The translations under genes and the position numbers were made by a program. From Struthio camelus (taxonomy: Eukaryota; Chordata; Aves; Struthioniformes; Struthionidae), in assembly GCF_040807025.1 (NCBI RefSeq), contig NC_090981.1, positions 70,255,645 to 70,319,644 of the forward strand: 64,000 bases of DNA, written 5' to 3'. The number at the start of each line of letters is the position of its first letter. The first letter of the stretch is position 1. Under the pieces are notes generated by a model. The model was not told the origin of the DNA. It saw only the letters and a list, made by a program, of their open reading frames with translations, and made no database searches. Shown piece after piece: positions 3,845 through 44,079 of the stretch.

Positions 3845-3845
3845 G

Positions 3846-4285: not shown

Positions 4286-4439
4286 GGAAGAGGGTCGCGT
4301 TTCTTAGAGCAGCATATCCGTCGTTTTTCTGGTAGCAGCAGAGCACCGCAGTGGGAGGTTCTGGAAGAGTCAGGAGCAGAACTGGCAGGAGGCTCTTTTC
4401 CCTGTCCGGATGGAAAAACGGCTGTAAGCACGCTTGCCA
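4286..4439. other. Short transition to GC-rich edge
   Basis: No feature identified apart from rising GC content toward the CpG-island-like segment at 4440. Confidence 0.4.
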
Positions 4440-4748: not shown

Positions 4749-5115
4749 GCGCATGCGCACTGGATCAGACCGGCTCGCGGCTGCGGCAAGCGGAGTGGCG
4801 CATGCGCATTGGGGGGCGACCCGCTTACTCCCTGCTGCCCTCAAGTGACTACGAACCGGTACTGCAGGCAGGGGATTAACGCATGCGCACTGCTCCAGAT
4901 GTGCTCCATGCTGCCCTCGGGTGATGCCACCCCAATAGTGCAGCCAGCCGACGAACGCATGCGTCCTGGACGCATCGGTTCCTTGGTGCCCCTCGAGCGA
5001 TGAAAGCCTGCCAGCCAAACAGCCGCCTCGCGCATGCGCGCCGCCCCGACACTGCTCCCTGCGGCCCTCAGCTACGAACAGCGTAGTACTGCAGGCAGCC
5101 GCAGCGCGCAGGCGC
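4749..5115 (+). repeat. Diverged left-edge units of the array
   Basis: Successive GCGCATGCGC-like cores start at 4749, 4798, 4879, 4955, 5030 and 5106, then 5202 and 5278. The spacings are 49, 81, 76, 75, 76, 96 and 76 bp. The cores keep the periodicity while the sequence between them is strongly diverged (for example ACGCATGCGC and ACGCATGCGT). The unit at 5106 reads GCGCAGGCGCACTTGCTCGG, where interior units read CAGTGGTTTCGG. Diverged flanks with a homogenised interior are typical of an old tandem array. An identical copy lies at 57661-58027. Confidence 0.85.
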
Positions 5116-8100
5116 ACTTGCTCGGCGTGGCTCGCTGGTGCCCTCGGCTGGCCAGAAATCGGTACTGCAGCCCGAAAAATCAGTACTGCAGCCGAAGCGG
5201 GGCGCAGGCGCAGTGGTTTCGGCGTGGCTCGTTGGTGCCCTCGGCTGGCCAGAAATCGGTACTGCAGGCGAAGCGGGGCGCATGCGCAGTAGTTTCGGCG
5301 TGGCTCGTGGGTGCCCTCGGCTGGCCAGAAATCGGTACTGCAGCGCGAAAAATCGGTACTGCAGGCGAAGCGGGGCGCATGCGCACTGGGTTTCGGCGTG
5401 GCTCGTTGGTGCCCTCGGCTGGCCAGAAATCGGTACTGCAGCCCGAAAAATCGGTACTGCAGGCGAAGCGGGGCGCATGCGCACTGGGTTTCGGCGTGGC
5501 TCGTGGGTGCCCTCGGCTGGCCAGAAATCGGTACTGCAGGCGAAGCGGGGCGCATGCGCAGTGGTTTCGGCGTGGCTCGTTGGTGCCCTCGGCTGGCCAG
5601 AAATTGGTACTGCAGGCGAAGCGGGGCGCAGGCGCAGTGGTTTCGGCGTGGCTCGTTGGTGCCCTCGGCTGGCCAGAAATCGGTACTGCAGGCGAAGCGG
5701 GGCGCATGCGCACTGGGTTTCGGCGTGGCTCGTTGGTGCCCTCGGCTGGCCAGAAATCGGTACTGCAGGCGAAGCGGGGCGCAGGCGCAGTGGTTTCGGC
5801 GTGGCTCGTTGGTGCCCTCGGCTGGCCAGAAATCGGTACTGCAGGCGAAGCGGGGCGCAGGCGCAGTGGTTTCGGCGTGACTCGTGGGTGCCCTCGGCTG
5901 GCCAGAAATCGGTACTGCAGGCGAAGCGGGGCGCATGCGCAGTGGTTTCGGCGTGGCTCGTGGGTGCCCTCGGCTGGCCAGAAATCGGTACTGCAGGCGA
6001 AGCGGGGCGCAGGCGCACTGGGTTTCGGCGTGGCTCGTTGGTGCCCTCGGCTGGCCAGAAATCGGTACTGCAGGCGAAGCGGGGCGCATGCGCACTGGGT
6101 TTCGGCGTGGCTCGTGGGTGCCCTCGGCTGGCCAGAAATCGGTACTGCAGCCCGAAAAAACGGTCCTGCAGGCGAAGCGGGGCGCATGCGCACTGGGTTT
6201 CGGCGTGGGTCGTTGGTGCCCTCGGCTGGCCAGAAATCGGTACTGCAGGCGAAGCGGGGCGCATGCGCAGTGGTTTCGGCGTGGCTCGTTGGTGCCCTCG
6301 GCTGGCCAGAAATCGGTACTGCAGGCGAAGCGGGGCGCAGGCGCAGTGGTTTCGGCGTGGCTCGTTGGTGCCCTCGGCTGGCCAGAAATCGGTACTGCAG
6401 GCGAAGCGGGGCGCATGCGCACTGGGTTTCGGCGTGGCTCGTTGGTGCCCTCGGCTGGCCAGAAATCGGTACTGCAGGCGAAGCGGGGCGCATGCGCAGT
6501 AGTTTCGGCGTGGCTCGTGGGTGCCCTCGGCTGGCCAGAAATCGGTACTGCAGCGCGAAAAATCGGTACTGCAGGCGAAGCGGGGCGCATGCGCACTGGG
6601 TTTCGGCGTGGCTCGTTGGTGCCCTCGGCTGGCCAGAAATCGGTCCTGCAGCGCGAAAAATCGGTACTGCAGGCGAAGCGGGGCGCATGCGCACTGGGTT
6701 TCGGCGTGGCTCGTTGGTGCCCTCGGCTGGCCAGAAATCGGTACTGCAGGCGAAGCGGGGCGCAGGCGCAGTGGTTTCGGCGTGGCTCGTTGGTGCCCTC
6801 GGCTGGCCAGAAATCGGTACTGCAGGCGAAGCGGGGCGCAGGCGCACTGGGTTTCGGCGTGGCTCGTTGGTGCCCTCGGCTGGCCAGAAATCGGTACTGC
6901 AGGCGAAGCGGGGCGCATGCGCACTGGGTTTCGGCGTGGCTCGTGGGTGCCCTCGGCTGGCCAGAAATCGGTACTGCAGCCCGAAAAAACGGTCCTGCAG
7001 GCGAAGCGGGGCGCATGCGCACTGGGTTTCGGCGTGGGTCGTTGGTGCCCTCGGCTGGCCAGAAATCGGTACTGCAGGCGAAGCGGGGCGCATGCGCAGT
7101 GGTTTCGGCGTGGCTCGTTGGTGCCCTCGGCTGGCCAGAAATCGGTACTGCAGGCGAAGCGGGGCGCAGGCGCAGTGGTTTCGGCGTGGCTCGTTGGTGC
7201 CCTCGGCTGGCCAGAAATCGGTACTGCAGGCGAAGCGGGGCGCATGCGCACTGGGTTTCGGCGTGGCTCGTTGGTGCCCTCGGCTGGCCAGAAATCGGTA
7301 CTGCAGCGCGAAAAATCGGTACTGCAGGCGAAGCGGGGCGCAGGCGCAGTGGTTTCGGCGTGGCTCGTGGGTGCCCTCGGCTGGCCAGAAATCGGTACTG
7401 CAGGCGAAGCGGGGCGCATGCGCAGTGGTTTCGGCGTGGCTCGTTGGTGCCCTCGGCTGGCCAGAAATCGGTCCTGCAGCGCGAAAAATCGGTACTGCAG
7501 GCGAAGCGGGGCGCATGCGCACTGGGTTTCGGCGTGACTCGTGGGTGCCCTCGGCTGGCCAGAAATCGGTACTACAGCCCGAAAAATCGGTACTGCAGGC
7601 GAAGCGGGGCGCAGGCGCAGTGGTTTCGGCGTGGCTCGTTGGTGCCCTCGGCTGGCCAGAAATCGGTACTGCAGCGCGAAAAATCCGTACTGCAGGCGAA
7701 GCGGGGCGCATGCGCACTGGGTTTCGGTGTGGCTCGTTGGTGCCCTCGGCTGGCGAAAAATCGGTACTGCAGGCGAAGCGGGGCGCATGCGCAGTGGTTT
7801 CGGCGTGGCTCGTTGGTGCCCTCGGCTGGCCAAAAATCGGTACTGCAGGCGAAGCGGGGTGCATGCGCAGTGGTTTCGGCGTGGCTCGTTGGTGCCCTCG
7901 GCTGGCCAGAAATCGGTCCTGCAGGCGAAGCGGGGCGCAGGCGCAGTGGTTTCGGCGTGGCTCGTTGGTGCCCTCGGCTGGCCAGAAATCGGTACTGCAG
8001 GCGAAGCGGGGCGCATGCGCAGTGGTTTCGGCGTGGCTCGTTGGTGCCCTCGGCTGGCCAGAAATCGGTACTGCAGGCGAAGCGGGGCGCAGGCGCAGTG

Positions 8101-9932
8101 GTTTCGGCGTGGCTCGTTGGTGCCCTCGGCTGGCGAGAAATCGGTACTGCAGGCGAAGCGGGGCGCATGCGCAGTAGTTTCGGCGTGGCTCGTGGGTGCC
8201 CTCGGCTGGCCAGAAATCGGTACTGCAGCCCGAAAAATCGGTACTGCAGGCGAAGCGGGGCGCATGCGCACTGGGTTTCGGCGTGGCTCGTTGGTGCCCT
8301 CGGCTGGCCAGAAATCGGTACTGCAGCCCGAAAAATCGGTACTGCAGGCGAAGCGGGGCGCATGCGCACTGGGTTTCGGCGTGGCTCGTGGGTGCCCTCG
8401 GCTGGCCAGAAATCGGTACTGCAGGCGAAGCGGGGCGCAGGCGCAGTGGTTTCGGCGTGGCTCGTTGGTGCCCTCGGCTGGCCAGAAATCGGTACTGCAG
8501 GCGAAGCGGGGCGCAGGCGCAGTGGTTTCGGCGTGGCTCGTTGGTGCCCTCGGCTGGCCAGAAATCGGTACTGCAGGCGAAGCGGGGCGCAGGCGCACTG
8601 GGTTTCGGCGTGGCTCGTTGGTGCCCTCGGCTGGCCAGAAATCGGTACTGCAGGCGAAGCGGGGCGCATGCGCACTGGGTTTCGGCGTGGCTCGTGGGTG
8701 CCCTCGGCTGGCCAGAAATCGGTACTGCAGCCCGAAAAAACGGTCCTGCAGGCGAAGCGGGGCGCATGCGCACTGGGTTTCGGCGTGGGTCGTTGGTGCC
8801 CTCGGCTGGCCAGAAATCGGTACTGCAGGCGAAGCGGGGCGCATGCGCAGTGGTTTCGGCGTGGCTCGTTGGTGCCCTCGGCTGGCCAGAAATCGGTACT
8901 GCAGGCGAAGCGGGGCGCAGGCGCAGTGGTTTCGGCGTGGCTCGTTGGTGCCCTCGGCTGGCCAGAAATCGGTACTGCAGGCGAAGCGGGGCGCATGCGC
9001 AGTGGTTTCGGCGTGGCTCGTTGGTGCCCTCGGCTGGCCAGAAATCGGTACTGCAGCGCGAAAAATCAGTACTGCAGGCGAAGCGGGGCGCATGCGCACT
9101 GGGTTTCGGCGTGACTCGTGGGTGCCCTCGGCTGGCCAGAAATCGGTACTACAGCCCGAAAAATCGGTACTGCAGGCGAAGCGGGGCGCAGGCGCAGTGG
9201 TTTCGGCGTGGCTCGTTGGTGCCCTCGGCTGGCCAGAAATCGGTACTGCAGGCGAAGCGGGGTGCATGCGCAGTGGTTTCGGCGTGGCTCGTTGGTGCCC
9301 TCGGCTGGCCAGAAATCGGTACTGCAGGCGAAGCGGGGCGCAGGCGCAGTGGTTTCGGCGTGGCTCGTGGGTGCCCTCGGCTGGCCAGAAATCGGTACTG
9401 CAGGCGAAGCGGGGCGCATGCGCAGTGGTTTCGGCGTGGCTCGTTGGTGCCCTCGGCTGGCCAGAAATCGGTACTGCAGGCGAAGCGGGGCGCAGGCGCA
9501 GTGGTTTCGGCGTGGCTCGTTGGTGCCCTCGGCTGGCCAGAAATCGGTACTGCAGGCGAAGCGGGGCGCAGGCGCAGTGGTTTCGGCGTGGCTCGTTGGT
9601 GCCCTCGGCTGGCGAAAAATCGGTACTGCAGGCGAAGCGGGGCGCATGCGCACTGGGTTTCGGCGTGGCTCGTTGGTGCCCTCGGCTGGCCAGAAATCGG
9701 TACTGCAGGCGAAGCGGGGCGCATGCGCAGTGGTTTCGGCGTGGCTCGTGGGTGCCCTCGGCTGGCCAGAAATCGGTACTGCAGGCGAAGCGGGGCGCAG
9801 GCGCAGTGGTTTCGGCGTGGCTCGTTGGTGCCCTCGGCTGGCCAGAAATCGGTACTGCAGCGCGAAAAATCGGTCCTGCAGGCGAAGCGGGGCGCATGCG
9901 CAGTGGTTTCGGCGTGGCTCGTTGGTGCCCTC

Positions 9933-10943
9933 GGCTAGCCAGAAATCGGTACTGCAGGCGAAGCGGGGCGCAGGCGCAGTGGTTTCGGCGTGGCTCGTTG
10001 GTGCCCTCGGCTGGCCAGAAATCGGTACTGCAGGCGAAGCGGGGCGCATGCGCAGTGGTTTCGGCGTGGCTCGTTGGTGCCCTCGGCTGGCCAGAAATCG
10101 GTACTGCAGGCGAAGCGGGGCGCAGGCGCAGTGGTTTCGGCGTGGCTCGTTGGTGCCCTCGGCTGGCCAGAAATCGGTCCTGCAGGCGAAGCGGGGCGCA
10201 TGCGCAGTGGTTTCGGCGTGGCTCGTTGGTGCCCTCGGCTGGCCAGAAATCGGTACTGCAGGCGAAGCGGGGCGCAGGCGCAGTGGTTTCGGCGTGGCTC
10301 GTTGGTGCCCTCGGCTGGCCAAAAATCGGTACTGCAGGCGAAGCGGGGCGCAGGCGCAGTGGTTTCGGCGTGGCTCGTTGGTGCCCTCGGCTGGCCAGAA
10401 ATCGGTACTGCAGGCGAAGCGGGGCGCAGGCGCAGTGGTTTCGGCGTGGCTCGTTGGTGCCCTCGGCTGGCCAGAAATCGGTACTGCAGGCGAAGCGGGG
10501 CGCAGGCGCAGTGGTTTCGGCGTGGCTCGTGGGTGCCCTCGGCTGGCCAGAAATCGGTACTGCAGGCGAAGCGGGGCGCAGGCGCAGTGGTTTCGGCGTG
10601 GCTCGTTGGTGCCCTCGGCTGGCGAAAAATCGGTACTGCAGGCGAAGCGGGGCGCATGCGCACTGGGTTTCGGCGTGGCTCGTTGGTGCCCTCGGCTGGC
10701 CAGAAATCGGTACTGCAGGCGAAGCGGGGCGCATGCGCAGTGGTTTCGGCGTGGCTCGTGGGTGCCCTCGGCTGGCCAGAAATCGGTACTGCAGGCGAAG
10801 CGGGGCGCAGGCGCACTGGGTTTCGGCGTGGCTCGTTGGTGCCCTCGGCTGGCCAGAAATCGGTCCTGCAGCGCGAAAAATCGGTCCTGCAGGCGAAGCG
10901 GGGCGCATGCGCAGTGGTTTCGGCGTGGCTCGTTGGTGCCCTC
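9933..10943 (+). repeat. 1011-bp higher-order segment inside the array
   Basis: A private variant, GGCTAGCC in place of GGCTGGCC, occurs at 9933 and 10944 (1011 bp apart). It recurs as pairs with exactly the same spacing at 17089/18100 and 27612/28623, plus two more at 40057 and 43055 (2998 bp apart). The pairs are offset by 7156, 10523 and 17679 bp. The array is therefore organised in higher-order blocks copied over many kilobases, not only as single units. Confidence 0.85.
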
Positions 10944-13900
10944 GGCTAGCCAGAAATCGGTACTGCAGGCGAAGCGGGGCGCAGGCGCAGTGGTTTCGGC
11001 GTGGCTCGTTGGTGCCCTCGGCTGGCCAGAAATCGGTACTGCAGGCGAAGCGGGGCGCATGCGCAGTGGTTTCGGCGTGGCTCGTTGGTGCCCTCGGCTG
11101 GCCAGAAATCGGTACTGCAGGCGAAGCGGTGCGCAGGCGCAGTGGTTTCGGCGTGGCTCGTTGGTGCCCTCGGCTGGCCAGAAATCGGTCCTGCAGGCGA
11201 AGCGGGGCGCATGCGCAGTGGTTTCGGCGTGGCTCGTTGGTGCCCTCGGCTGGCCAAAAATCGGTACTGCAGGCGAAGCGGGGCGCAGGCGCAGTGGTTT
11301 CGGCGTGGCTCGTTGGTGCCCTCGGCTGGCGAAAAATCGGTACTGCAGGCGAAGCGGTGCGCAGGCGCAGTGGTTTCGGCGTGGCTCGTGGGGGCCCTCG
11401 GCTGGCCAGAAATCGGTACTGCAGGCGAAGCGGGGCGCATGCGCAGTGGTTTCGGCGTGGCTCGTTGGTGCCCTCGGCTGGCCAGAAATCGGTACTGCAG
11501 CACGAAAAATCGGTACTGCAGGCGAAGCGGGGCGCATGCGCACTGGGTTTCGGCGTGGCTCGTTGGTGCCCTCGGCTGGCCAGAAATCGGTACTGCAGCC
11601 CGAAAAATCGGTACTGCAGGCGAAGCGGGGCGCATGCGCAGTGGTTTCGGCGTGGCTCGTTGGTGCCCTCGGCTGGCCAGAAATCGGTACTGCAGGCGAA
11701 GCGGGGCGCATGCGCAGTGGTTTCGGCGTGGCTCGTTGGTGCCCTCGGCTGGCCAGAAATTGGTACTGCAGGCGAAGCGGGGCGCAGGCGCAGTGGTTTC
11801 GGCGTGGCTCGTTGGTGCCCTCGGCTGGCGAAAAATCGGTACTGCAGGCGAAGCGGGGCGCAGGCGCAGTGGTTTCGGCGTGGCTCGTTGGTGCCCTCGG
11901 CTGGCCAGAAATCGGTACTGCAGCCCGAAAAAACGGTCCTGCAGGCGAAGCGGGGCGCATGCGCACTGGGTTTCGGCGTGGGTCGTTGGTGCCCTCGGCT
12001 GGCCAGAAATCGGTACTGCAGGCGAAGCGGGGCGCATGCGCAGTGGTTTCGGCGTGGCTCGTTGGTGCCCTCGGCTGGCCAGAAATCGGTACTGCAGGCG
12101 AAGCGGGGCGCATGCGCACTGGGTTTCGGCGTGGCTCGTTGGTGCCCTCGGCTGGCCAGAAATCGGTACTGCAGCGCGAAAAATCGGTACTGCAGGCGAA
12201 GCGGGGCGCAGGCGCAGTGGTTTCGGCGTGGCTCGTGGGTGCCCTCGGCTGGCCAGAAATCGGTACTGCAGGCGAAGCGGGGCGCATGCGCAGTGGTTTC
12301 GGCGTGGCTCGTTGGTGCCCTCGGCTGGCCAGAAATCGGTACTGCAGCGCGAAAAATCCGTACTGCAGGCGAAGCGGGGCGCATGCGCACTGGGTTTCGG
12401 TGTGGCTCGTTGGTGCCCTCGGCTGACGAAAAATCGGTACTGCAGGCGAAGCGGGGCGCATGCGCAGTGGTTTCGGCGTGGCTCGTTGGTGCCCTCGGCT
12501 GGCCAAAAATCGGTACTGCAGGCGAAGCGGGGTGCATGCGCAGTGGTTTCGGCGTGGCTCGTTGGTGCCCTCGGCTGGCCAGAAATCGGTACTGCAGGCG
12601 AAGCGGGGCGCAGGCGCAGTGGTTTCGGCGTGGCTCGTTGGTGCCCTCGGCTGGCCAGAAATCGGTACTGCAGGCGAAGCGGGGCGCATGCGCAGTGGTT
12701 TCGGCGTGGCTCGTTGGTGCCCTCGGCTGGCCAGAAATCGGTACTGCAGGCGAAGCGGGGCGCAGGCGCAGTGGTTTCGGCGTGGGTCGTTGGTGCCCTC
12801 GGCTGGCCAGAAATCGGTACTGCAGGCGAAGCGGGGCGCATGCGCAGTAGTTTCGGCGTGGCTCGTGGGTGCCCTCGGCTGGCCAGAAATCGGTACTGCA
12901 GCCCGAAAAATCGGTACTGCAGGCGAAGCGGGGCGCATGCGCACTGGGTTTCGGCGTGGCTCGTTGGTGCCCTCGGCTGGCCAGAAATCGGTACTGCAGC
13001 CCGAAAAATCGGTACTGCAGGCGAAGCGGGGCGCATGCGCACTGGGTTTCGGCGTGGCTCGTGGGTGCCCTCGGCTGGCCAGAAATCGGTACTGCAGGCG
13101 AAGCGGGGCGCATGCGCAGTGGTTTCGGCGTGGCTCGTTGGTGCCCTCGGCTGGCCAGAAATTGGTACTGCAGGCGAAGCGGGGCGCAGGCGCAGTGGTT
13201 TCGGCGTGGCTCGTTGGTGCCCTCGGCTGGCGAAAAATCGGTACTGCAGGCGAAGCGGGGCGCATGCGCAGTGGTTTCGGCGTGGCTCGTTGGTGCCCTC
13301 GGCTGGCCAGAAATCGGTACTGCAGGCGAAGCGGGGCGCATGCGCAGTGGTTTCGGCGTGGCTCGTGGGTGCCCTCGGCTGGCCAGAAATCGGTACTGCA
13401 GGCGAAGCGGGGCGCATGCGCAGTGGTTTCGGCGTGGCTCGTTGGTGCCCTCGGCTGGCCAGAAATCGGTACTGCAGGCGAAGCGGGGCGCATGCGCACT
13501 GGGTTTCGGCGTGGCTCGTTGGTGCCCTCGGCTGGCCAGAAATCGGTACTGCAGGCGAAGCGGGGCGCAGGCGCAGTGGTTTCGGCGTGGCTCGTGGGTG
13601 CCCTCGGCTGGCCAGAAATCGGTACTGCAGGCGAAGCGGGGCGCAGGCGCACTGGGTTTCGGCGTGGCTCGTTGGTGCCCTCGGCTGGCCAGAAATCGGT
13701 ACTGCAGGCGAAGCGGGGCGCATGCGCACTGGGTTTCGGCGTGGCTCGTGGGTGCCCTCGGCTGGCCAGAAATCGGTACTGCAGCCCGAAAAAACGGTCC
13801 TGCAGGCGAAGCGGGGCGCATGCGCACTGGGTTTCGGCGTGGGTCGTTGGTGCCCTCGGCTGGCCAGAAATCGGTACTGCAGGCGAAGCGGGGCGCATGC

Positions 13901-16900: not shown

Positions 16901-17088
16901 CTCGTGGGTGCCCTCGGCTGGCCAGAAATCGGTACTGCAGGCGAAGCGGGGCGCAGGCGCAGTGGTTTCGGCGTGGCTCGTTGGTGCCCTCGGCTGGCCA
17001 GAAATCGGTACTGCAGCGCGAAAAATCGGTCCTGCAGGCGAAGCGGGGCGCATGCGCAGTGGTTTCGGCGTGGCTCGTTGGTGCCCTC

Positions 17089-28622: not shown

Positions 28623-31600
28623 GGCTAGCCAGAAATCGGTACTGCAGGCGAAGCGGGGCGCAGGCGCAGTGGTTTCGGCGTGGCTCGTTGGTGCCCTCGG
28701 CTGGCCAGAAATCGGTACTGCAGGCGAAGCGGGGCGCATGCGCAGTGGTTTCGGCGTGGCTCGTTGGTGCCCTCGGCTGGCCAGAAATCGGTACTGCAGG
28801 CGAAGCGGTGCGCAGGCGCAGTGGTTTCGGCGTGGCTCGTTGGTGCCCTCGGCTGGCCAGAAATCGGTCCTGCAGGCGAAGCGGGGCGCATGCGCAGTGG
28901 TTTCGGCGTGGCTCGTTGGTGCCCTCGGCTGGCCAAAAATCGGTACTGCAGGCGAAGCGGGGCGCAGGCGCAGTGGTTTCGGCGTGGCTCGTTGGTGCCC
29001 TCGGCTGGCGAAAAATCGGTACTGCAGGCGAAGCGGTGCGCAGGCGCAGTGGTTTCGGCGTGGCTCGTGGGGGCCCTCGGCTGGCCAGAAATCGGTACTG
29101 CAGGCGAAGCGGGGCGCATGCGCAGTGGTTTCGGCGTGGCTCGTTGGTGCCCTCGGCTGGCCAGAAATCGGTACTGCAGCACGAAAAATCGGTACTGCAG
29201 GCGAAGCGGGGCGCATGCGCACTGGGTTTCGGCGTGGCTCGTTGGTGCCCTCGGCTGGCCAGAAATCGGTACTGCAGCCCGAAAAATCGGTACTGCAGGC
29301 GAAGCGGGGCGCATGCGCAGTGGTTTCGGCGTGGCTCGTTGGTGCCCTCGGCTGGCCAGAAATCGGTACTGCAGGCGAAGCGGGGCGCATGCGCAGTGGT
29401 TTCGGCGTGGCTCGTTGGTGCCCTCGGCTGGCCAGAAATTGGTACTGCAGGCGAAGCGGGGCGCAGGCGCAGTGGTTTCGGCGTGGCTCGTTGGTGCCCT
29501 CGGCTGGCGAAAAATCGGTACTGCAGGCGAAGCGGGGCGCAGGCGCAGTGGTTTCGGCGTGGCTCGTTGGTGCCCTCGGCTGGCCAGAAATCGGTACTGC
29601 AGCCCGAAAAAACGGTCCTGCAGGCGAAGCGGGGCGCATGCGCACTGGGTTTCGGCGTGGGTCGTTGGTGCCCTCGGCTGGCCAGAAATCGGTACTGCAG
29701 GCGAAGCGGGGCGCATGCGCAGTGGTTTCGGCGTGGCTCGTTGGTGCCCTCGGCTGGCCAGAAATCGGTACTGCAGGCGAAGCGGGGCGCAGGCGCAGTG
29801 GTTTCGGCGTGGCTCGTTGGTGCCCTCGGCTGGCGAAAAATCGGTACTGCAGGCGAAGCGGGGCGCATGCGCAGTGGTTTCGGCGTGGCTCGTTGGTGCC
29901 CTCGGCTGGCCAGAAATCGGTACTGCAGGCGAAGCGGGGCGCATGCGCACTGGGTTTCGGCGTGGCTCGTTGGTGCCCTCGGCTGGCCAGAAATCGGTAC
30001 TGCAGCGCGAAAAATCGGTACTGCAGGCGAAGCGGGGCGCAGGCGCAGTGGTTTCGGCGTGGCTCGTGGGTGCCCTCGGCTGGCCAGAAATCGGTACTGC
30101 AGGCGAAGCGGGGCGCATGCGCAGTGGTTTCGGCGTGGCTCGTTGGTGCCCTCGGCTGGCCAGAAATCGGTACTGCAGCGCGAAAAATCCGTACTGCAGG
30201 CGAAGCGGGGCGCATGCGCACTGGGTTTCGGTGTGGCTCGTTGGTGCCCTCGGCTGACGAAAAATCGGTACTGCAGGCGAAGCGGGGCGCATGCGCAGTG
30301 GTTTCGGCGTGGCTCGTTGGTGCCCTCGGCTGGCCAAAAATCGGTACTGCAGGCGAAGCGGGGTGCATGCGCAGTGGTTTCGGCGTGGCTCGTTGGTGCC
30401 CTCGGCTGGCCAGAAATCGGTACTGCAGGCGAAGCGGGGCGCAGGCGCAGTGGTTTCGGCGTGGCTCGTTGGTGCCCTCGGCTGGCCAGAAATCGGTACT
30501 GCAGGCGAAGCGGGGCGCATGCGCAGTGGTTTCGGCGTGGCTCGTTGGTGCCCTCGGCTGGCCAGAAATCGGTACTGCAGGCGAAGCGGGGCGCAGGCGC
30601 AGTGGTTTCGGCGTGGGTCGTTGGTGCCCTCGGCTGGCCAGAAATCGGTACTGCAGGCGAAGCGGGGCGCATGCGCAGTGGTTTCGGCGTGGCTCGTGGG
30701 TGCCCTCGGCTGGCCAGAAATCGGTACTGCAGCACGAAAAATCGGTACTGCAGGCGAAGCGGGGCGCATGCGCACTGGGTTTCGGCGTGGCTCGTTGGTG
30801 CCCTCGGCTGGCCAGAAATCGGTACTGCAGCCCGAAAAATCGGTACTGCAGGCGAAGCGGGGCGCATGCGCACTGGGTTTCGGCGTGGCTCGTGGGTGCC
30901 CTCGGCTGGCCAGAAATCGGTACTGCAGGCGAAGCGGGGCGCATGCGCAGTGGTTTCGGCGTGGCTCGTTGGTGCCCTCGGCTGGCCAGAAATTGGTACT
31001 GCAGGCGAAGCGGGGCGCAGGCGCAGTGGTTTCGGCGTGGCTCGTTGGTGCCCTCGGCTGGCGAAAAATCGGTACTGCAGGCGAAGCGGGGCGCATGCGC
31101 AGTGGTTTCGGCGTGGCTCGTTGGTGCCCTCGGCTGGCCAGAAATCGGTACTGCAGGCGAAGCGGGGCGCATGCGCAGTGGTTTCGGCGTGGCTCGTGGG
31201 TGCCCTCGGCTGGCCAGAAATCGGTACTGCAGGCGAAGCGGGGCGCATGCGCAGTGGTTTCGGCGTGGCTCGTTGGTGCCCTCGGCTGGCCAGAAATCGG
31301 TACTGCAGGCGAAGCGGGGCGCATGCGCACTGGGTTTCGGCGTGGCTCGTTGGTGCCCTCGGCTGGCCAGAAATCGGTACTGCAGGCGAAGCGGGGCGCA
31401 GGCGCAGTGGTTTCGGCGTGGCTCGTGGGTGCCCTCGGCTGGCCAGAAATCGGTACTGCAGGCGAAGCGGGGCGCAGGCGCACTGGGTTTCGGCGTGGCT
31501 CGTTGGTGCCCTCGGCTGGCCAGAAATCGGTACTGCAGGCGAAGCGGGGCGCATGCGCACTGGGTTTCGGCGTGGCTCGTGGGTGCCCTCGGCTGGCCAG

Positions 31601-34600
31601 AAATCGGTACTGCAGCCCGAAAAAACGGTCCTGCAGGCGAAGCGGGGCGCATGCGCACTGGGTTTCGGCGTGGGTCGTTGGTGCCCTCGGCTGGCCAGAA
31701 ATCGGTACTGCAGGCGAAGCGGGGCGCATGCGCAGTGGTTTCGGCGTGGCTCGTTGGTGCCCTCGGCTGGCCAGAAATCGGTACTGCAGGCGAAGCGGGG
31801 CGCATGCGCAGTGGTTTCGGCGTGGCTCGTTGGTGCCCTCGGCTGGCCAGAAATCGGTACTGCAGGCGAAGCGGGGCGCATGCGCACTGGGTTTCGGCGT
31901 GGCTCGTTGGTGCCCTCGGCTGGCCAGAAATCGGTACTGCAGCCCGAAAAATCGGTACTGCAGGCGAAGCGGGGCGCATGCGCACTGGGTTTCGGCGTGG
32001 GTCGTTGGTGCCCTCGGCTGGCCAGAAATCGGTACTGCAGGCGAAGCGGGGCGCAGGCGCAGTGGTTTCGGCGTGGCTCGTTGGTGCCCTCGGCTGGCCA
32101 GAAATCGGTACTGCAGGCGAAGCGGGGCGCAGGCGCACTGGGTTTCGGCGTGGCTCGTTGGTGCCCTCGGCTGGCCAGAAATCGGTACTGCAGGCGAAGC
32201 GGGGCGCAGGCGCACTGGGTTTCGGCGTGGCTCGTTGGTGCCCTCGGCTGGCCAGAAATCGGTACTGCAGCCCGAAAAATCGGTACTGCAGGCGAAGCGG
32301 GGCGCATGCGCACTGGGTTTCGGCGTGGGTCGTTGGTGCCCTCGGCTGGCCAGAAATCGGTACTGCAGGCGAAGCGGGGCGCAGGCGCAGTGGTTTCGGC
32401 GTGGCTCGTTGGTGCCCTCGGCTGGCCAGAAATCGGTACTGCAGGCGAAGCGGGGCGCATGCGCACTGGGTTTCGGCGTGGCTCGTGGGTGCCCTCGGCT
32501 GGCCAGAAATCGGTACTGCAGCCCGAAAAAACGGTCCTGCAGGCGAAGCGGGGCGCATGCGCACTGGGTTTCGGCGTGGGTCGTTGGTGCCCTCGGCTGG
32601 CCAGAAATCGGTACTGCAGGCGAAGCGGGGCGCATGCGCAGTGGTTTCGGCGTGGCTCGTTGGTGCCCTCGGCTGGCCAGAAATCGGTACTGCAGGCGAA
32701 GCGGGGCGCAGGCGCAGTGGTTTCGGCGTGGCTCGTTGGTGCCCTCGGCTGGCCAGAAATCGGTACTGCAGGCGAAGCGGGGCGCATGCGCACTGGGTTT
32801 CGGCGTGGCTCGTTGGTGCCCTCGGCTGGCCAGAAATCGGTACTGCAGCGCGAAAAATCGGTACTGCAGGCGAAGCGGGGCGCAGGCGCAGTGGTTTCGG
32901 CGTGGCTCGTGGGTGCCCTCGGCTGGCCAGAAATCGGTACTGCAGGCGAAGCGGGGCGCATGCGCAGTGGTTTCGGCGTGGCTCGTTGGTGCCCTCGGCT
33001 GGCCAGAAATCGGTCCTGCAGCGCGAAAAATCGGTACTGCAGGCGAAGCGGGGCGCATGCGCACTGGGTTTCGGCGTGGCTCGTTGGTGCCCTCGGCTGG
33101 CCAGAAATCGGTACTGCAGCCCGAAAAATCGGTACTGCAGGCGAAGCGGGGCGCATGCGCACTGGGTTTCGGCGTGGCTCGTGGGTGCCCTCGGCTGGCC
33201 AGAAATCGGTACTGCAGGCGAAGCGGGGCGCATGCGCAGTGGTTTCGGCGTGGCTCGTTGGTGCCCTCGGCTGGCCAGAAATCGGTACTGCAGGCGAAGC
33301 GGGGCGCAGGCGCAGTGGTTTCGGCGTGGCTCGTTGGTGCCCTCGGCTGGCCAGAAATCGGTACTGCAGGCGAAGCGGGGCGCAGGCGCACTGGGTTTCG
33401 GCGTGGCTCGTGGGTGCCCTCGGCTGGCCAGAAATCGGTACTGCAGCCCGAAAAAACGGTCCTGCAGGCGAAGCGGGGCGCATGCGCAGTGGTTTCGGCG
33501 TGGCTCGTTGGTGCCCTCGGCTGGCCAGAAATCGGTACTGCAGGCGAAGCGGGGCGCATGCGCAGTGGTTTCGGCGTGGCTCGTTGGTGCCCTCGGCTGG
33601 CCAGAAATCGGTACTGCAGGCGAAGCGGGGCGCAGGCGCAGTGGTTTCGGCGTGGCTCGTGGGTGCCCTCGGCTGGCCAGAAATCGGTACTGCAGGCGAA
33701 GCGGGGCGCAGGCGCACTGGGTTTCGGCGTGGCTCGTTGGTGCCCTCGGCTGGCCAGAAATCGGTACTGCAGCGCGAAAAATCGGTACTGCAGGCGAAGC
33801 GGGGCGCATGCGCACTGGGTTTCGGCGTGACTCGTGGGTGCCCTCGGCTGGCCAGAAATCGGTACTACAGCCCGAAAAATCGGTACTGCAGGCGAAGCGG
33901 GGCGCAGGCGCAGTGGTTTCGGCGTGGCTCGTTGGTGCCCTCGGCTGGCCAGAAATCGGTACTGCAGCACGAAAAATCGGTACTGCAGGCGAAGCGGGGC
34001 GCATGCGCACTGGGTTTCGGCGTGGCTCGTTGGTGCCCTCGGCTGGCCAGAAATCGGTACTGCAGGCGAAGCGGGGCGCATGCGCAGTGGTTTCGGCGTG
34101 GCTCGTTGGTGCCCTCGGCTGGCCAGAAATTGGTACTGCAGGCGAAGCGGGGCGCATGCGCAGTGGTTTCGGCGTGGCTCGTTGGTGCCCTCGGCTGGCG
34201 AAAAATCGGTACTGCAGGCGAAGCGGGGCGCAGGCGCAGTGGTTTCGGCGTGGCTCGTTGGTGCCCTCGGCTGGCCAGAAATCGGTACTGCAGCCCGAAA
34301 AAACGGTCCTGCAGGCGAAGCGGGGCGCATGCGCACTGGGTTTCGGCGTGGGTCGTTGGTGCCCTCGGCTGGCCAGAAATCGGTACTGCAGGCGAAGCGG
34401 GGCGCATGCGCAGTGGTTTCGGCGTGGCTCGTTGGTGCCCTCGGCTGGCCAGAAATCGGTACTGCAGGCGAAGCGGGGCGCAGGCGCACTGGGTTTCGGC
34501 GTGGCTCGTTGGTGCCCTCGGCTGGCCAGAAATCGGTACTGCAGGCGAAGCGGGGCGCAGGCGCAGTGGTTTCGGCGTGGCTCGTTGGTGCCCTCGGCTG

Positions 34601-37600
34601 GCCAGAAATCGGTACTGCAGGCGAAGCGGGGCGCAGGCGCAGTGGTTTCGGCGTGGCTCGTTGGTGCCCTCGGCTGGCCAGAAATCGGTACTGCAGCGCG
34701 AAAAATCGGTACTGCAGGCGAAGCGGGGCGCAGGCGCAGTGGTTTCGGCGTGGCTCGTGGGTGCCCTCGGCTGGCCAGAAATCGGTACTGCAGGCGAAGC
34801 GGGGCGCAGGCGCAGTGGTTTCGGCGTGGCTCGTTGGTGCCCTCGGCTGGCCAGAAATCGGTACTGCAGCGCGAAAAATCCGTACTGCAGGCGAAGCGGG
34901 GCGCATGCGCACTGGGTTTCGGTGTGGCTCGTTGGTGCCCTCGGCTGACGAAAAATCGGTACTGCAGGCGAAGCGGGGCGCATGCGCAGTGGTTTCGGCG
35001 TGGCTCGTTGGTGCCCTCGGCTGGCCAAAAATCGGTACTGCAGGCGAAGCGGGGTGCATGCGCAGTGGTTTCGGCGTGGCTCGTTGGTGCCCTCGGCTGG
35101 CCAGAAATCGGTACTGCAGGCGAAGCGGGGCGCAGGCGCAGTGGTTTCGGCGTGGCTCGTTGGTGCCCTCGGCTGGCCAGAAATCGGTACTGCAGGCGAA
35201 GCGGGGCGCATGCGCAGTGGTTTCGGCGTGGCTCGTTGGTGCCCTCGGCTGGCCAGAAATCGGTACTGCAGGCGAAGCGGGGCGCAGGCGCAGTGGTTTC
35301 GGCGTGGCTCGTTGGTGCCCTCGGCTGGCCAGAAATCGGTACTGCAGGCGAAGCGGGGCGCATGCGCAGTAGTTTCGGCGTGGCTCGTGGGTGCCCTCGG
35401 CTGGCCAGAAATCGGTACTGCAGCGCGAAAAATCGGTACTGCAGGCGAAGCGGGGCGCATGCGCACTGGGTTTCGGCGTGGCTCGTTGGTGCCCTCGGCT
35501 GGCCAGAAATCGGTACTGCAGCCCGAAAAATCGGTACTGCAGGCGAAGCGGGGCGCATGCGCACTGGGTTTCGGCGTGGCTCGTGGGTGCCCTCGGCTGG
35601 CCAGAAATCGGTACTGCAGGCGAAGCGGGGCGCATGCGCAGTGGTTTCGGCGTGGCTCGTTGGTGCCCTCGGCTGGCCAGAAATTGGTACTGCAGGCGAA
35701 GCGGGGCGCAGGCGCAGTGGTTTCGGCGTGGCTCGTTGGTGCCCTCGGCTGGCCAGAAATCGGTACTGCAGGCGAAGCGGGGCGCAGGCGCACTGGGTTT
35801 CGGCGTGACTCGTGGGTGCCCTCGGCTGGCCAGAAATCGGTACTGCAGGCGAAGCGGGGCGCATGCGCACTGGGTTTCGGCGTGGCTCGTTGGTGCCCTC
35901 GGCTGGCCAGAAATCGGTACTGCAGGCGAAGCGGGGCGCAGGCGCAGTGGTTTCGGCGTGGCTCGTTGGTGCCCTCGGCTGGCCAGAAATCGGTACTGCA
36001 GGCGAAGCGGGGCGCAGGCGCAGTGGTTTCGGCGTGACTCGTTGGTGCCCTCGGCTGGCCAGAAATCGGTACTGCAGGCGAAGCGGGGCGCATGCGCAGT
36101 GGTTTCGGCGTGGCTCGTGGGTGCCCTCGGCTGGCCAGAAATCGGTACTGCAGGCGAAGCGGGGCGCAGGCGCACTGGGTTTCGGCGTGGGTCGTTGGTG
36201 CCCTCGGCTGGCCAGAAATCGGTACTGCAGGCGAAGCGGGGCGCATGCGCACTGGGTTTCGGCGTGGCTCGTGGGTGCCCTCGGCTGGCCAGAAATCGGT
36301 ACTGCAGCCCGAAAAATCGGTCCTGCAGGCGAAGCGGGGCGCATGCGCACTGGGTTTCGGCGTGGGTCGTTGGTGCCCTCGGCTGGCCAGAAATCGGTAC
36401 TGCAGGCGAAGCGGGGCGCATGCGCACTGGGTTTCGGCGTGGCTCGTTGGTGCCCTCGGCTGGCCAGAAATCGGTACTGCAGGCGAAGCGGGGCGCATGC
36501 GCAGTAGTTTCGGCGTGGCTCGTGGGTGCCCTCGGCTGGCCAGAAATCGGTACTGCAGCGCGAAAAATCGGTACTGCAGGCGAAGCGGGGCGCATGCGCA
36601 CTGGGTTTTGGCGTGGCTCGTTGGTGCCCTCGGCTGGCCAGAAATCGGTACTGCAGCCCGAAAAATCGGTCCTGCAGGCGAAGCGGGGCGCAGGCGCACT
36701 GGGTTTCGGCGTGGGTCGTTGGTGCCCTCGGCTGGCCAGAAATCGGTACTGCAGGCGAAGCGGGGCGCAGGCGCAGTGGTTTCGGCGTGGCTCGTTGGTG
36801 CCCTCGGCTGGCCAGAAATCGGTACTGCAGGCGAAGCGGGGCGCAGGCGCAGTGGTTTCGGCGTGGCTCGTTGGTGCCCTCGGCTGGCCAGAAATCGGTA
36901 CTGCAGGCGAAGCGGGGCGCATGCGCACTGGGTTTCGGCGTGGCTCGTTGGTGCCCTCGGCTGGCCAGAAATCGGTACTGCAGCGCGAAAAATCGGTACT
37001 GCAGGCGAAGCGGGGCGCAGGCGCAGTGGTTTCGGCGTGGCTCGTGGGTGCCCTCGGCTGGCCAGAAATCGGTACTGCAGGCGAAGCGGGGCGCATGCGC
37101 AGTGGTTTCGGCGTGGCTCGTTGGTGCCCTCGGCTGGCCAGAAATCGGTCCTGCAGCGCGAAAAATCGGTACTGCAGGCGAAGCGGGGCGCATGCGCACT
37201 GGGTTTCGGCGTGACTCGTGGGTGCCCTCGGCTGGCCAGAAATCGGTACTACAGCCCGAAAAATCGGTACTGCAGGCGAAGCGGGGCGCAGGCGCAGTGG
37301 TTTCGGCGTGGCTCGTTGGTGCCCTCGGCTGGCCAGAAATCGGTCCTGCAGCGCGAAAAATCGGTACTGCAGGCGAAGCGGGGCGCATGCGCACTGGGTT
37401 TCGGCGTGACTCGTGGGTGCCCTCGGCTGGCCAGAAATCGGTACTACAGCCCGAAAAATCGGTACTGCAGGCGAAGCGGGGCGCATGCGCACTGGGTTTC
37501 GGTGTGGCTCGTTGGTGCCCTCGGCTGGCGAAAAATCGGTACTGCAGGCGAAGCGGGGCGCATGCGCAGTGGTTTCGGCGTGGCTCGTGGGTGCCCTCGG

Positions 37601-40600
37601 CTGGCCAGAAATCGGTACTACAGCCCGAAAAATCGGTACTGCAGGCGAAGCGGGGCGCAGGCGCAGTGGTTTCGGCGTGGCTCGTTGGTGCCCTCGGCTG
37701 GCCAGAAATCGGTACTGCAGCGCGAAAAATCCGTACTGCAGGCGAAGCGGGGCGCATGCGCACTGGGTTTCGGTGTGGCTCGTTGGTGCCCTCGGCTGGC
37801 GAAAAATCGGTACTGCAGGCGAAGCGGGGCGCATGCGCAGTGGTTTCGGCGTGGCTCGTTGGTGCCCTCGGCTGGCCAAAAATCGGTACTGCAGGCGAAG
37901 CGGGGCGCATGCGCACTGGGTTTCGGCGTGGCTCGTTGGTGCCCTCGGCTGGCCAGAAATCGGTACTGCAGGCGAAGCGGGGCGCAGGCGCAGTGGTTTC
38001 GGCGTGGCTCGTTGGTGCCCTCGGCTGGCCAGAAATCGGTACTGCAGGCGAAGCGGGGCGCATGCGCAGTGGTTTCGGCGTGGCTCGTTGGTGCCCTCGG
38101 CTGGCCAGAAATCGGTACTGCAGGCGAAGCGGGGCGCAGGCGCAGTGGTTTCGGCGTGGCTCGTTGGTGCCCTCGGCTGGCCAGAAATCGGTACTGCAGG
38201 CGAAGCGGGGCGCATGCGCAGTAGTTTCGGCGTGGCTCGTGGGTGCCCTCGGCTGGCCAGAAATCGGTACTGCAGCCCGAAAAATCGGTACTGCAGGCGA
38301 AGCGGGGCGCATGCGCACTGGGTTTCGGCGTGGCTCGTTGGTGCCCTCGGCTGGCCAGAAATCGGTACTGCAGCCCGAAAAATCGGTACTGCAGGCGAAG
38401 CGGGGCGCATGCGCACTGGGTTTCGGCGTGGCTCGTGGGTGCCCTCGGCTGGCCAGAAATCGGTACTGCAGGCGAAGCGGGGCGCAGGCGCAGTGGTTTC
38501 GGCGTGGCTCGTTGGTGCCCTCGGCTGGCCAGAAATCGGTACTGCAGGCGAAGCGGGGCGCAGGCGCAGTGGTTTCGGCGTGGCTCGTTGGTGCCCTCGG
38601 CTGGCCAGAAATCGGTACTGCAGGCGAAGCGGGGCGCAGGCGCACTGGGTTTCGGCGTGGCTCGTTGGTGCCCTCGGCTGGCCAGAAATCGGTACTGCAG
38701 GCGAAGCGGGGCGCATGCGCACTGGGTTTCGGCGTGGCTCGTGGGTGCCCTCGGCTGGCCAGAAATCGGTACTGCAGCCCGAAAAAACGGTCCTGCAGGC
38801 GAAGCGGGGCGCATGCGCACTGGGTTTCGGCGTGGGTCGTTGGTGCCCTCGGCTGGCCAGAAATCGGTACTGCAGGCGAAGCGGGGCGCATGCGCAGTGG
38901 TTTCGGCGTGGCTCGTTGGTGCCCTCGGCTGGCCAGAAATCGGTACTGCAGGCGAAGCGGGGCGCAGGCGCAGTGGTTTCGGCGTGGCTCGTTGGTGCCC
39001 TCGGCTGGCCAGAAATCGGTACTGCAGGCGAAGCGGGGCGCATGCGCACTGGGTTTCGGCGTGGCTCGTTGGTGCCCTCGGCTGGCCAGAAATCGGTACT
39101 GCAGCGCGAAAAATCGGTACTGCAGGCGAAGCGGGGCGCAGGCGCAGTGGTTTCGGCGTGGCTCGTTGGTGCCCTCGGCTGGCCAGAAATCGGTACTGCA
39201 GCGCGAAAAATCCGTACTGCAGGCGAAGCGGGGCGCATGCGCACTGGGTTTCGGTGTGGCTCGTTGGTGCCCTCGGCTGGCGAAAAATCGGTACTGCAGG
39301 CGAAGCGGGGCGCATGCGCAGTGGTTTCGGCGTGGCTCGTTGGTGCCCTCGGCTGGCCAGAAATCGGTACTGCAGGCGAATCGGGGTGCATGCGCAGTGG
39401 TTTCGGCGTGGCTCGTTGGTGCCCTCGGCTGGCCAGAAATCGGTACTGCAGGCGAAGCGGGGCGCAGGCGCAGTGGTTTCGGCGTGGCTCGTGGGTGCCC
39501 TCGGCTGGCCAGAAATCGGTACTGCAGGCGAAGCGGGGCGCATGCGCAGTGGTTTCGGCGTGGCTCGTGGGTGCCCTCGGCTGGCCAGAAATCGGTACTG
39601 CAGGCGAAGCGGGGCGCAGGCGCAGTGGTTTCGGCGTGGCTCGTTGGTGCCCTCGGCTGGCCAGAAATCGGTACTGCAGGCGAAGCGGGGCGCAGGCGCA
39701 GTGGTTTCGGCGTGGCTCGTTGGTGCCCTCGGCTGGCGAAAAATCGGTACTGCAGGCGAAGCGGGGCGCATGCGCACTGGGTTTCGGCGTGGCTCGTTGG
39801 TGCCCTCGGCTGGCCAGAAATCGGTACTGCAGGCGAAGCGGGGCGCATGCGCAGTGGTTTCGGCGTGGCTCGTGGGTGCCCTCGGCTGGCCAGAAATCGG
39901 TACTGCAGGCGAAGCGGGGCGCAGGCGCAGTGGTTTCGGCGTGGCTCGTTGGTGCCCTCGGCTGGCCAGAAATCGGTACTGCAGCGCGAAAAATCGGTCC
40001 TGCAGGCGAAGCGGGGCGCATGCGCAGTGGTTTCGGCGTGGCTCGTTGGTGCCCTCGGCTAGCCAGAAATCGGTACTGCAGGCGAAGCGGGGCGCAGGCG
40101 CAGTGGTTTCGGCGTGGCTCGTTGGTGCCCTCGGCTGGCCAGAAATCGGTACTGCAGGCGAAGCGGGGCGCATGCGCAGTGGTTTCGGCGTGGCTCGTTG
40201 GTGCCCTCGGCTGGCCAGAAATCGGTACTGCAGGCGAAGCGGGGCGCAGGCGCAGTGGTTTCGGCGTGGCTCGTTGGTGCCCTCGGCTGGCCAGAAATCG
40301 GTACTGCAGGCGAAGCGGGGCGCATGCGCAGTGGTTTCGGCGTGGCTCGTGGGGGCCCTCGGCTGGCCAGAAATCGGTACTGCAGGCGAAGCGGGGCGCA
40401 GGCGCAGTGGTTTCGGCGTGGCTCGTTGGTGCCCTCGGCTGGCCAAAAATCGGTACTGCAGGCGAAGCGGGGCGCAGGCGCAGTGGTTTCGGCGTGGCTC
40501 GTTGGTGCCCTCGGCTGGCCAGAAATCGGTACTGCAGGCGAAGCGGGGCGCAGGCGCAGTGGTTTCGGCGTGGCTCGTGGGTGCCCTCGGCTGGCCAGAA

Positions 40601-43600
40601 ATCGGTACTGCAGGCGAAGCGGGGCGCAGGCGCAGTGGTTTCGGCGTGGCTCGTTGGTGCCCTCGGCTGGCGAAAAATCGGTACTGCAGGCGAAGCGGGG
40701 CGCATGCGCACTGGGTTTCGGCGTGGCTCGTTGGTGCCCTCGGCTGGCCAGAAATCGGTACTGCAGGCGAAGCGGGGCGCATGCGCAGTGGTTTCGGCGT
40801 GGCTCGTGGGTGCCCTCGGCTGGCCAGAAATCGGTACTGCAGGCGAAGCGGGGCGCAGGCGCACTGGGTTTCGGCGTGGCTCGTTGGTGCCCTCGGCTGG
40901 CCAGAAATCGGTACTGCAGCGCGAAAAATCGGTCCTGCAGGCGAAGCGGGGCGCATGCGCAGTGGTTTCGGCGTGGCTCGTTGGTGCCCTCGGCTGGCCA
41001 GAAATCGGTACTGCAGGCGAAGCGGGGCGCATGCGCAGTGGTTTCGGCGTGGCTCGTTGGTGCCCTCGGCTGGCCAGAAATCGGTACTGCAGGCGAAGCG
41101 GGGCGCAGGCGCAGTGGTTTCGGCGTGGCTCGTTGGTGCCCTCGGCTGGCCAGAAATCGGTCCTGCAGGCGAAGCGGGGCGCATGCGCAGTGGTTTCGGC
41201 GTGGCTCGTTGGTGCCCTCGGCTGGCCAAAAATCGGTACTGCAGGCGAAGCGGGGCGCAGGCGCAGTGGTTTCGGCGTGGCTCGTTGGTGCCCTCGGCTG
41301 GCCAGAAATCGGTACTGCAGGCGAAGCGGGGCGCAGGCGCAGTGGTTTCGGCGTGGCTCGTTGGTGCCCTCGGCTGGCCAGAAATCGGTACTGCAGGCGA
41401 AGCGGGGCGCAGGCGCAGTGGTTTCGGCGTGGCTCGTGGGTGCCCTCGGCTGGCCAGAAATCGGTACTGCAGGCGAAGCGGGGCGCAGGCGCAGTGGTTT
41501 CGGCGTGGCTCGTTGGTGCCCTCGGCTGGCCAGAAATCGGTACTGCAGGCGAAGCGGGGCGCAGGCGCAGTGGTTTCGGCGTGGCTCGTGGGTGCCCTCG
41601 GCTGGCCAGAAATCGGTACTGCAGGCGAAGCGGGGCGCATGCGCACTGGGTTTCGGCGTGGCTCGTTGGTGCCCTCGGCTGGCCAGAAATCGGTACTGCA
41701 GCGCGAAAAATCGGTACTGCAGGCGAAGCGGGGCGCAGGCGCAGTGGTTTCGGCGTGGCTCGTGGGTGCCCTCGGCTGGCCAGAAATCGGTACTGCAGGC
41801 GAAGCGGGGCGCATGCGCAGTGGTTTCGGCGTGGCTCGTTGGTGCCCTCGGCTGGCCAGAAATCGGTCCTGCAGCGCGAAAAATCGGTCCTGCAGGCGAA
41901 GCGGGGCGCATGCGCACTGGGTTTCGGCGTGACTCGTGGGTGCCCTCGGCTGGCCAGAAATCGGTACTACAGCCCGAAAAATCGGTACTGCAGGCGAAGC
42001 GGGGCGCAGGCGCAGTGGTTTCGGCGTGGCTCGTTGGTGCCCTCGGCTGGCCAGAAATCGGTACTGCAGGCGAAGCGGGGCGCAGGCGCAGTGGTTTCGG
42101 CGTGGCTCGTTGGTGCCCTCGGCTGGCCAGAAATCGGTACTGCAGGCGAAGCGGGGCGCATGCGCAGTGGTTTCGGCGTGGCTCGTTGGTGCCCTCGGCT
42201 GGCCAGAAATCGGTACTGCAGGCGAAGCGGGGCGCAGGCGCAGTGGTTTCGGCGTGGCTCGTTGGTGCCCTCGGCTGGCCAGAAATCGGTACTGCAGGCG
42301 AAGCGGGGCGCAGGCGCAGTGGTTTCGGCGTGGCTCGTTGGTGCCCTCGGCTGGCGAAAAATCGGTACTGCAGGCGAAGCGGGGCGCATGCGCAGTGGTT
42401 TCGGCGTGGCTCGTTGGTGCCCTCGGCTGGCCAGAAATCGGTACTGCAGGCGAAGCGGGGCGCATGCGCAGTGGTTTCGGCGTGGCTCGTGGGTGCCCTC
42501 GGCTGGCCAGAAATCGGTACTGCAGGCGAAGCGGGGCGCAGGCGCAGTGGTTTCGGCGTGGCTCGTTGGTGCCCTCGGCTGGCCAGAAATCGGTCCTGCA
42601 GGCGAAGCGGGGCGCATGCGCAGTGGTTTCGGCGTGGCTCGTGGGGGCCCTCGGCTGGCCAGAAATCGGTACTGCAGGCGAAGCGGGGCGCATGCGCAGT
42701 GGTTTCGGCGTGGCTCGTTGGTGCCCTCGGCTGGCCAAAAATCGGTACTGCAGGCGAAGCGGGGCGCAGGCGCAGTGGTTTCGGCGTGGCTCGTTGGTGC
42801 CCTCGGCTGGCCAGAAATCGGTACTGCAGGCGAAGCGGGGCGCAGGCGCAGTGGTTTCGGCGTGGCTCGTGGGTGCCCTCGGCTGGCCAGAAATCGGTAC
42901 TGCAGGCGAAGCGGGGCGCAGGCGCACTGGGTTTCGGCGTGGCTCGTTGGTGCCCTCGGCTGGCCAGAAATCGGTACTGCAGCGCGAAAAATCGGTCCTG
43001 CAGGCGAAGCGGGGCGCATGCGCAGTGGTTTCGGCGTGGCTCGTTGGTGCCCTCGGCTAGCCAGAAATCGGTACTGCAGGCGAAGCGGGGCGCATGCGCA
43101 GTGGTTTCGGCGTGGCTCGTTGGTGCCCTCGGCTGGCCAGAAATCGGTACTGCAGGCGAAGCGGGGCGCATGCGCAGTGGTTTCGGCGTGGCTCGTTGGT
43201 GCCCTCGGCTGGCCAGAAATCGGTCCTGCAGGCGAAGCGGGGCGCATGCGCAGTGGTTTCGGCGTGGCTCGTTGGTGCCCTCGGCTGGCCAGAAATCGGT
43301 ACTGCAGGCGAAGCGGGGCGCATGCGCAGTGGTTTCGGCGTGGCTCGTTGGTGCCCTCGGCTGGCCAGAAATCGGTACTGCAGGCGAAGCGGGGCGCATG
43401 CGCAGTGGTTTCGGCGTGGCTCGTTGGTGCCCTCGGCTGGCCAAAAATCGGTACTGCAGGCGAAGCGGGGCGCAGGCGCAGTGGTTTCGGCGTGGCTCGT
43501 TGGTGCCCTCGGCTGGCCAGAAATCGGTACTGCAGGCGAAGCGGGGTGCATGCGCAGTGGTTTCGGCGTGGCTCGTTGGTGCCCTCGGCTGGCCAGAAAT

Positions 43601-43795
43601 CGGTACTGCAGGCGAAGCGGGGCGCATGCGCAGTGGTTTCGGCGTGGCTCGTTGGTGCCCTCGGCTGGCCAGAAATCGGTACTGCAGGCGAAGCGGGGCG
43701 CAGGCGCAGTGGTTTCGGCGTGGCTCGTTGGTGCCCTCGGCTGGCCAGAAATCGGTACTGCAGGCGAAGCGGGGCGCAGGCGCAGTGGTTTCGGC

Positions 43796-43893
43796 GTGGC
43801 GAAGCGGGGCGCAGGTGCACTTGCTCGTCGGCGCTCGTTGGTGCCCTCGGCTGGCGAAAAGTGGGTACTGCAGGCGAAGCGGGGCGCATGCGC
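43796..43893 (+). repeat. Diverged right-edge units of the array
   Basis: The last regular unit breaks at about 43799, where GCGTGGC is joined directly to GAAGCGGGGCGCAGG. The next unit reads GCAGGTGCACTTGCTCGTCG and ends CTGGCGAAAAGTGGGTACTGCAG. The final NRF1-like core of the array is at 43884-43893. The ACTTGCTCG segment also occurs in the left-edge unit at 5106, so both ends keep a sequence the homogenised interior has lost. Confidence 0.8.
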
Positions 43894-44077: not shown

Positions 44078-44079
44078 GT

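Follow-up and report, generated by a model that had tools for sequence, protein, structure and literature searches.

A 39-kb tandem array of NRF1-type sites in the ostrich genome as the upstream part of a candidate subtelomeric promoter family

In the 64,000-bp stretch of the ostrich (Struthio camelus) genome analyzed here (the window; NC_090981.1, positions 70,255,645-70,319,644, a contig called C40 in the following), a tandem array of 76-77-bp units with NRF1-type cores runs into a CpG island. Motifs of the GCGCAYGCGC type are the consensus of the transcription factor NRF1. Array and island belong to a macro-unit (Table 1), and positions 1-5160 differ from the copy that starts at 52914 by two substitutions and one homopolymer base only. 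Hence, the "second array" noted in an earlier interpretation made from the sequence alone (the sequence-only reading) is present, but it belongs to the copy of the macro-unit that follows at a distance of 52,913 bp.

The whole window holds 324 copies of GCGCATGCGC and 222 of GCGCAGGCGC, together 546, whereas 20 dinucleotide shuffles of the window yield both cores 1.8 times on average and four times at most. NRF1 sites were scored by the exact core, with the motif consensus in place of an NRF1 matrix. Between the anchors at 4853 and 43859, the intervals comprise 320 of 76 bp, 154 of 77 bp and 115 of 21 bp, the latter being partial units that give 98-bp units, as well as two odd intervals of 110 and 303 bp. 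The estimate of about 480 units thus agrees with the 474 units of 76-77 bp counted in addition to the 115 partial ones. Likewise, the claim of an NRF1-type core in nearly every unit holds, as 462 of the 476 parsed intervals above 60 bp in length keep the exact GCGCA[T/G]GCGC; 11 of the remaining 14 carry GTGCATGCGC and three have other core changes. Nine CpGs per unit, as proposed, are found in 502 of the 548 full units of both arrays. The homogeneity of the array is high (57 distinct forms among 591 parsed intervals), and blocks are duplicated within it (window 9770-43800), for example one of 34 units that is repeated without change at a 17,679-bp offset. Despite the near-identical flanks, no block of at least ten identical units is common to the first array and the start of the second, suggesting that the arrays turn over faster than the flanks. 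The extent of 4749-43893 given by the sequence-only reading encloses a real array, but its margins (about 350 bp on the left, about 170 bp on the right) consist of strongly diverged core-bearing units, in which some cores have one or two mismatches. On the left, imperfect cores lie at 4879 (one mismatch) and 4955 (two), and the remaining sequence is about 62% consensus-like. Folding of the unit into a hairpin was no better than that of shuffles (z +1.3), and neither IMG/VR nor the prokaryote genome set contained the exact unit word.

Table 1. Features of the macro-unit and its next copy, in window coordinates
Feature	Position	Strand	Remarks
Macro-unit flank before the array	1..4748	+	matches the copy from 52914
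Degenerate edge units	4749..5103	+	exact cores at 4749, 4798, 5030 (also 5106)
Homogeneous 76/77-bp NRF1-core array	5104..43800	+	21-bp partial units included; CpG observed/expected 1.10
Array end passing into CpG island	43801..44450	+	exact GCGCATGCGC at 43884, 43943, 43961
Splice-donor-like GTGAGGTGAGC	44073..44083	+	within the island
Retroelement RNase H-like remnant, open fragment	46765..47283	+	PF17919, E 1.7e-13; inside the macro-unit
Second promoter-type minisatellite, ~61-bp units	52283..52640	+	motifs taken to be ZNF143-, ETS- and YY1-like
Next copy of flank 1-4748	52914..57661	+	sequence match
Array of the next macro-unit	57662..64000	+	cut by the window end; flank block resumes at C40:70320393

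The unit might also be read as a protein-coding repeat because none of its six frames is closed: neither strand of the type 1 unit contains a stop trinucleotide, a property seen in about 2% of 5000 base shuffles. Two of the three interval lengths (76, 77 and 21 bp) shift the frame at each step, however, and the type 2 unit has one stop on one strand, so that we give this explanation next to no credence. A stop-to-stop frame of 5267 aa on the minus strand (window 28625-44428) results from the stop-free type 1 unit and was taken as chance rather than as a gene.

The array abuts the island in the window, while about 0.65 kb of GC-rich sequence and a pyrimidine tract lie between the two on C3 and in one C7 copy. 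At up to three mismatches, the island core matches the genome 47 times, on 26 contigs and at 31 contig ends, and all 47 copies are oriented toward the nearest contig end. Within 500 kb of such an end, in zones making up about 1.8% of the genome, lie 46 of the 47 copies (at 21-450 kb). The sole copy far from an end (C6:46843511, at 3.46 Mb) has degenerate upstream units and perhaps marks an old chromosome end or an assembly join. Of the 31 island-bearing ends, 16 show TTAGGG or CCCTAA arrays; relative to all chromosome ends, the placement supports "many" and not "most". All 21 aligned islands contain the donor-like GGTGAGG and at least one exact GCGCATGCGC, the latter partly by construction because the search pattern contained one such core.

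Related arrays are found at other chromosome ends. The genome contains 25 matches to the left-edge pattern of the window, seven on C40 and nine on C41 without mismatch and the others with two mismatches, on C3 (three), C7 (three), C8, C14 and C22 (one each). On C40, the left edge is separated from the island or the next block by about 11.6, 6.5, 38.9 (window), 6.7, 6.7, 2.8 and 6.0 kb, and on C41 by 0.7-17.7 kb, the intervals being derived from coordinates alone for C41 and for most of the first C40 interval. At ten further ends, sequence 650-1150 bp upstream of the island was sampled, and each of them has core-bearing repeats, with a regular period of about 76 bp in eight, while C6R and C25R are degenerate. 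BLAST comparisons with the window unit gave alignments for seven ends, with identities of 69-85%, for the most part 70-75%, apart from one stretch of 22 bp at 91%; for the repeats of C2R, C3R and C24R, no match was obtained at E 0.001. Several units have cores altered by one or two changes; for example, four of the six C3R units carry CCGCATGCGC, and two of the six C1L units carry GTGCATGCGC. The longest copy series occur on C40 and C41, which also have a common island variant otherwise found once, on C7. Both observations would fit an array that expanded on two chromosomes which are perhaps the W/Z pair.

Next, we turn to the conservation of the core. For 12 sources (the ten ends, one unit of the window edge and three of the window array), 54 units were cut at the GTACTGCA block, not at the core, and aligned. 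The best-kept 10-mer across the sources is the NRF1 core (0.947 compared to 0.834 for the rest), suggesting that the core is probably meaningful; TGCTGCCCTC (0.942) and the anchor block are next best kept. Of the 66 source pairs, 43 agree at less than 75% in the other columns; in these, agreement is 94% for the core and 67% for the rest, although the pairs are not independent because seven of the 12 sources belong to one subfamily. Left-edge units of the window keep the core at 0.94 and the rest at 0.62. A masked-core alignment intended as a control on the edge units failed, with core columns displaced and 0-2 of ten bases matched, and these units were re-examined by alignment-free 10-mer counts. 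In these counts, the left edge is led by the core together with words that overlap it, while at the right edge GCGGGGCGCA leads at up to two mismatches and the core by exact matches only. Across 40 forms of the type 2 unit, deviations affect 7 of 400 core sites compared to 125 of 2640 sites elsewhere.

Substitution patterns at CpGs separate array and island from their surroundings. In the flanks, CpG transitions occur at 4.9-17.1 times the non-CpG rate (seven comparisons, six of C40 with other chromosomes and one within C40). The corresponding ratio for the island is 0.4-1.6 in three comparisons, with one copy from C3 and two from C7, and 1.03 across the 210 pairs that 21 islands form, a value that also takes in upstream DNA of poor alignability. 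For the array, the ratio per unit form is 1.4 (C40), 0.7 (C7) and 1.8 (C3), it is 1.36 in seven autosomal ends, and counting distinct changes only gives 2.5 or 1.8; these values were taken against a consensus and those of the flanks pairwise, so the measures are not the same. As the decay ratio of array and island (0.4-2.5) compares with 4.9-17.1 in the flanks, both look germline-unmethylated, and the plainest reading of the substitutions is that array and island are unmethylated and the flanks methylated in the germ line. For the germ line, the signature thus suggests a state other than the heavily methylated compartment that the sequence-only reading had envisaged for a silent array. It also suggests that a satellite may be able to stay germline-unmethylated beside flanks with ordinary CpG decay.

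The genome-wide subtelomeric setting, which was beyond the reach of the sequence-only reading, indicates a promoter role. We assign a probability of roughly 55% to the proposal that the array forms the upstream section of a telomere-facing, probably NRF1-driven family of subtelomeric CpG-island promoters. Location, orientation, core persistence across diverged subfamilies and the CpG signature are the observations behind this estimate. Toward the nearest chromosome end, the proposed block would consist of the 76-bp-period NRF1-core array, the CpG island, and flanking and chromosome-end sequence, with the island contributing one to three further NRF1 cores and the conserved splice-donor-like site. 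NRF1 occupancy of array and island, as predicted from the cores, would keep both unmethylated in the germ line and would drive RNA polymerase II toward the telomere, yielding a transcript that is probably non-coding; an effect on chromosome ends is conceivable. The presence of the block at many chromosome ends would be due to subtelomeric exchange, and the growth of the array to 39 kb in the window to unequal exchange.

Besides the dependence among source pairs and the unlike CpG measures, several points weigh against this proposal. Recent C40 and C7 units do not keep the core clearly better than the rest, the core of C3 units even deviates more (0.083 compared to 0.03-0.05 per site and form), and 28 of 76 ten-base windows of type 2 units deviate less than the core. 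Core conservation in recent units is therefore not exceptional and does not demonstrate present selection on each unit. Fast homogenization or GC-biased conversion could also retain CpGs, and subtelomeric duplications are often co-oriented regardless of function. Furthermore, Pfam searches above curated cut-offs (10 open frames and all six frames of 43900-57662) gave the retroelement RNase H remnant and no other protein domain that might mark a product.

The main rival is passive amplification. Unequal exchange would have multiplied a fragment of an old NRF1-type promoter, and recombination between subtelomeres would have distributed it; its CpG richness would stem from homogenization or an incidental lack of methylation, and array length would be functionless. 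The fast array turnover, the recent units without excess core conservation and edge-to-island intervals varying from about 0.7 to 39 kb are in line with such a by-product. On the other hand, cores persist in the edge units of the window and, with the 76-bp period at eight of ten ends, across subfamilies that are about 67% identical elsewhere. We regard passive amplification as a serious contender with a substantial minority chance. As another alternative, thousands of sites might titrate NRF1, as had also been suggested from the sequence alone. The 2215 exact genome copies (2067 + 148) of one 26-base unit word would provide such a decoy, but island, orientation and autosomal arrays are left unexplained, and we consider this explanation very improbable.

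The closest known kind to the promoter family proposed here are the human 61-29-37 repeats, promoters of telomeric repeat-containing RNA (TERRA). These repeats lie on 37 of 46 chromosome ends (PMC12242772), their 29-bp repeat has two putative NRF1 sites, and their activation on demethylation depends on NRF1 (PMC6600276). In the features compared, the ostrich arrays are likewise subtelomeric, CpG-rich and tandem with NRF1 motifs. In contrast to the human repeats, the ostrich unit measures 76 bp, and the array extends over 39 kb within a 53-kb macro-unit. Moreover, human 61-29-37 repeats lie beside the telomere, whereas the ostrich islands are not close to a telomeric tract: on C40, 36.5 kb separate the most distal island from the TTAGGG tract, and elsewhere the contig end is 21-450 kb and in one case 3.46 Mb away. 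The sequence-only reading knew of no described satellite of this type, but the human repeats (PMC6600276) are a related kind; a description of an NRF1-site satellite in a bird was absent among the matches listed, with most subscription journals outside the literature searched. As a whole, the sequence-only reading is supported in part.

A strict TERRA promoter, with a start in the island and transcription into TTAGGG, would agree with the orientation of islands near 31 contig ends and with the combination of CpG-rich repeats and NRF1-type sites known from human. The distances just given argue against it, as do other CpG-rich repeats nearer the C40 telomere, and we judge it unlikely. Two simple patterns gave no CTCF-like match in 4735-57662. 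In C40:70380000-70392303, CpG-rich 23/41/61-bp repeats lie about 4 kb from the TTAGGG tract and are better candidates for strict TERRA promoters than the islands. The same region has a 17-bp satellite with 63 perfect copies, followed by TTAGGG. Repeated exon-like pieces with acceptor- and donor-like signals were seen in distal C40 sequence (piece L023, around its positions 3000-3500), and by eye the same sequence occurs at the C11 end.

In a further-reaching form of the promoter proposal, an NRF1-controlled, methylation-gated, telomere-facing promoter system would run chromosome ends and be a bird equivalent, of ancestral or convergent origin, to the NRF1-dependent TERRA promoters of human. 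Array length would set the output, and the putative sex chromosomes would carry hugely expanded, germ-cell-active versions. We hold this form to be tentative and rather doubtful. If the blocks are transcribed, NRF1-dependent subtelomeric promoters would not be a primate peculiarity, and the ostrich would offer a second system for telomere biology with wide natural variation in array length. It would also be a case of a satellite in which, between subfamilies, a binding site for a transcription factor is retained better than other parts of the unit.

With its 52,913-bp period, the locus is a macrosatellite in the sense of tandem kilobase-scale units, while further array copies on C40 and C41 are irregularly spaced. 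The D4Z4 and DXZ4 macrosatellites also consist of kilobase-scale tandem units with CpG-rich promoter-like parts. The ostrich locus differs in its unit of about 53 kb, its nested minisatellite and the related blocks near many chromosome ends. Chicken PO41 is an avian subtelomeric tandem repeat as well, with a 41-bp unit transcribed from both strands (PMC4301066); the ostrich unit of 76-77 bp sets it apart from PO41/CNM, and the PO41 abstract names no NRF1 site. The HINT1W array on the chicken W (5,648-bp amplicon, 52 copies; PMC9974502) resembles the ostrich locus as a tandem amplicon on an avian sex chromosome, with sex linkage putative in the ostrich, but it contains a gene, and the parts of that report consulted mention no NRF1 minisatellite.

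The further hits CtaG_Cox11 (E 0.076) and EsV_1_7_cys (E 0.084) fell below their own Pfam cut-offs and were taken as chance. Rfam gave no match at gathering scores in 43000-59000, a protein search with the retroelement fragment left none of 64 candidates at E 0.001, and a pattern for the bird-type CR1 tail had no match in the window, which by itself thus offers no support of this sort for a bird origin. The second minisatellite contains six ZNF143-like matches at up to four mismatches (three at 0-1, three at 4), eight CTTCCGG and five GGCCAT motifs, which we take to be ZNF143-, ETS- and YY1-like by their consensus sequences; none of the three counts was reached in 500 shuffles. The block therefore bundles several housekeeping-promoter motifs. 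This minisatellite has six copies in the window and 8.5 near the distal C40 end (C40:70363318-70363835).

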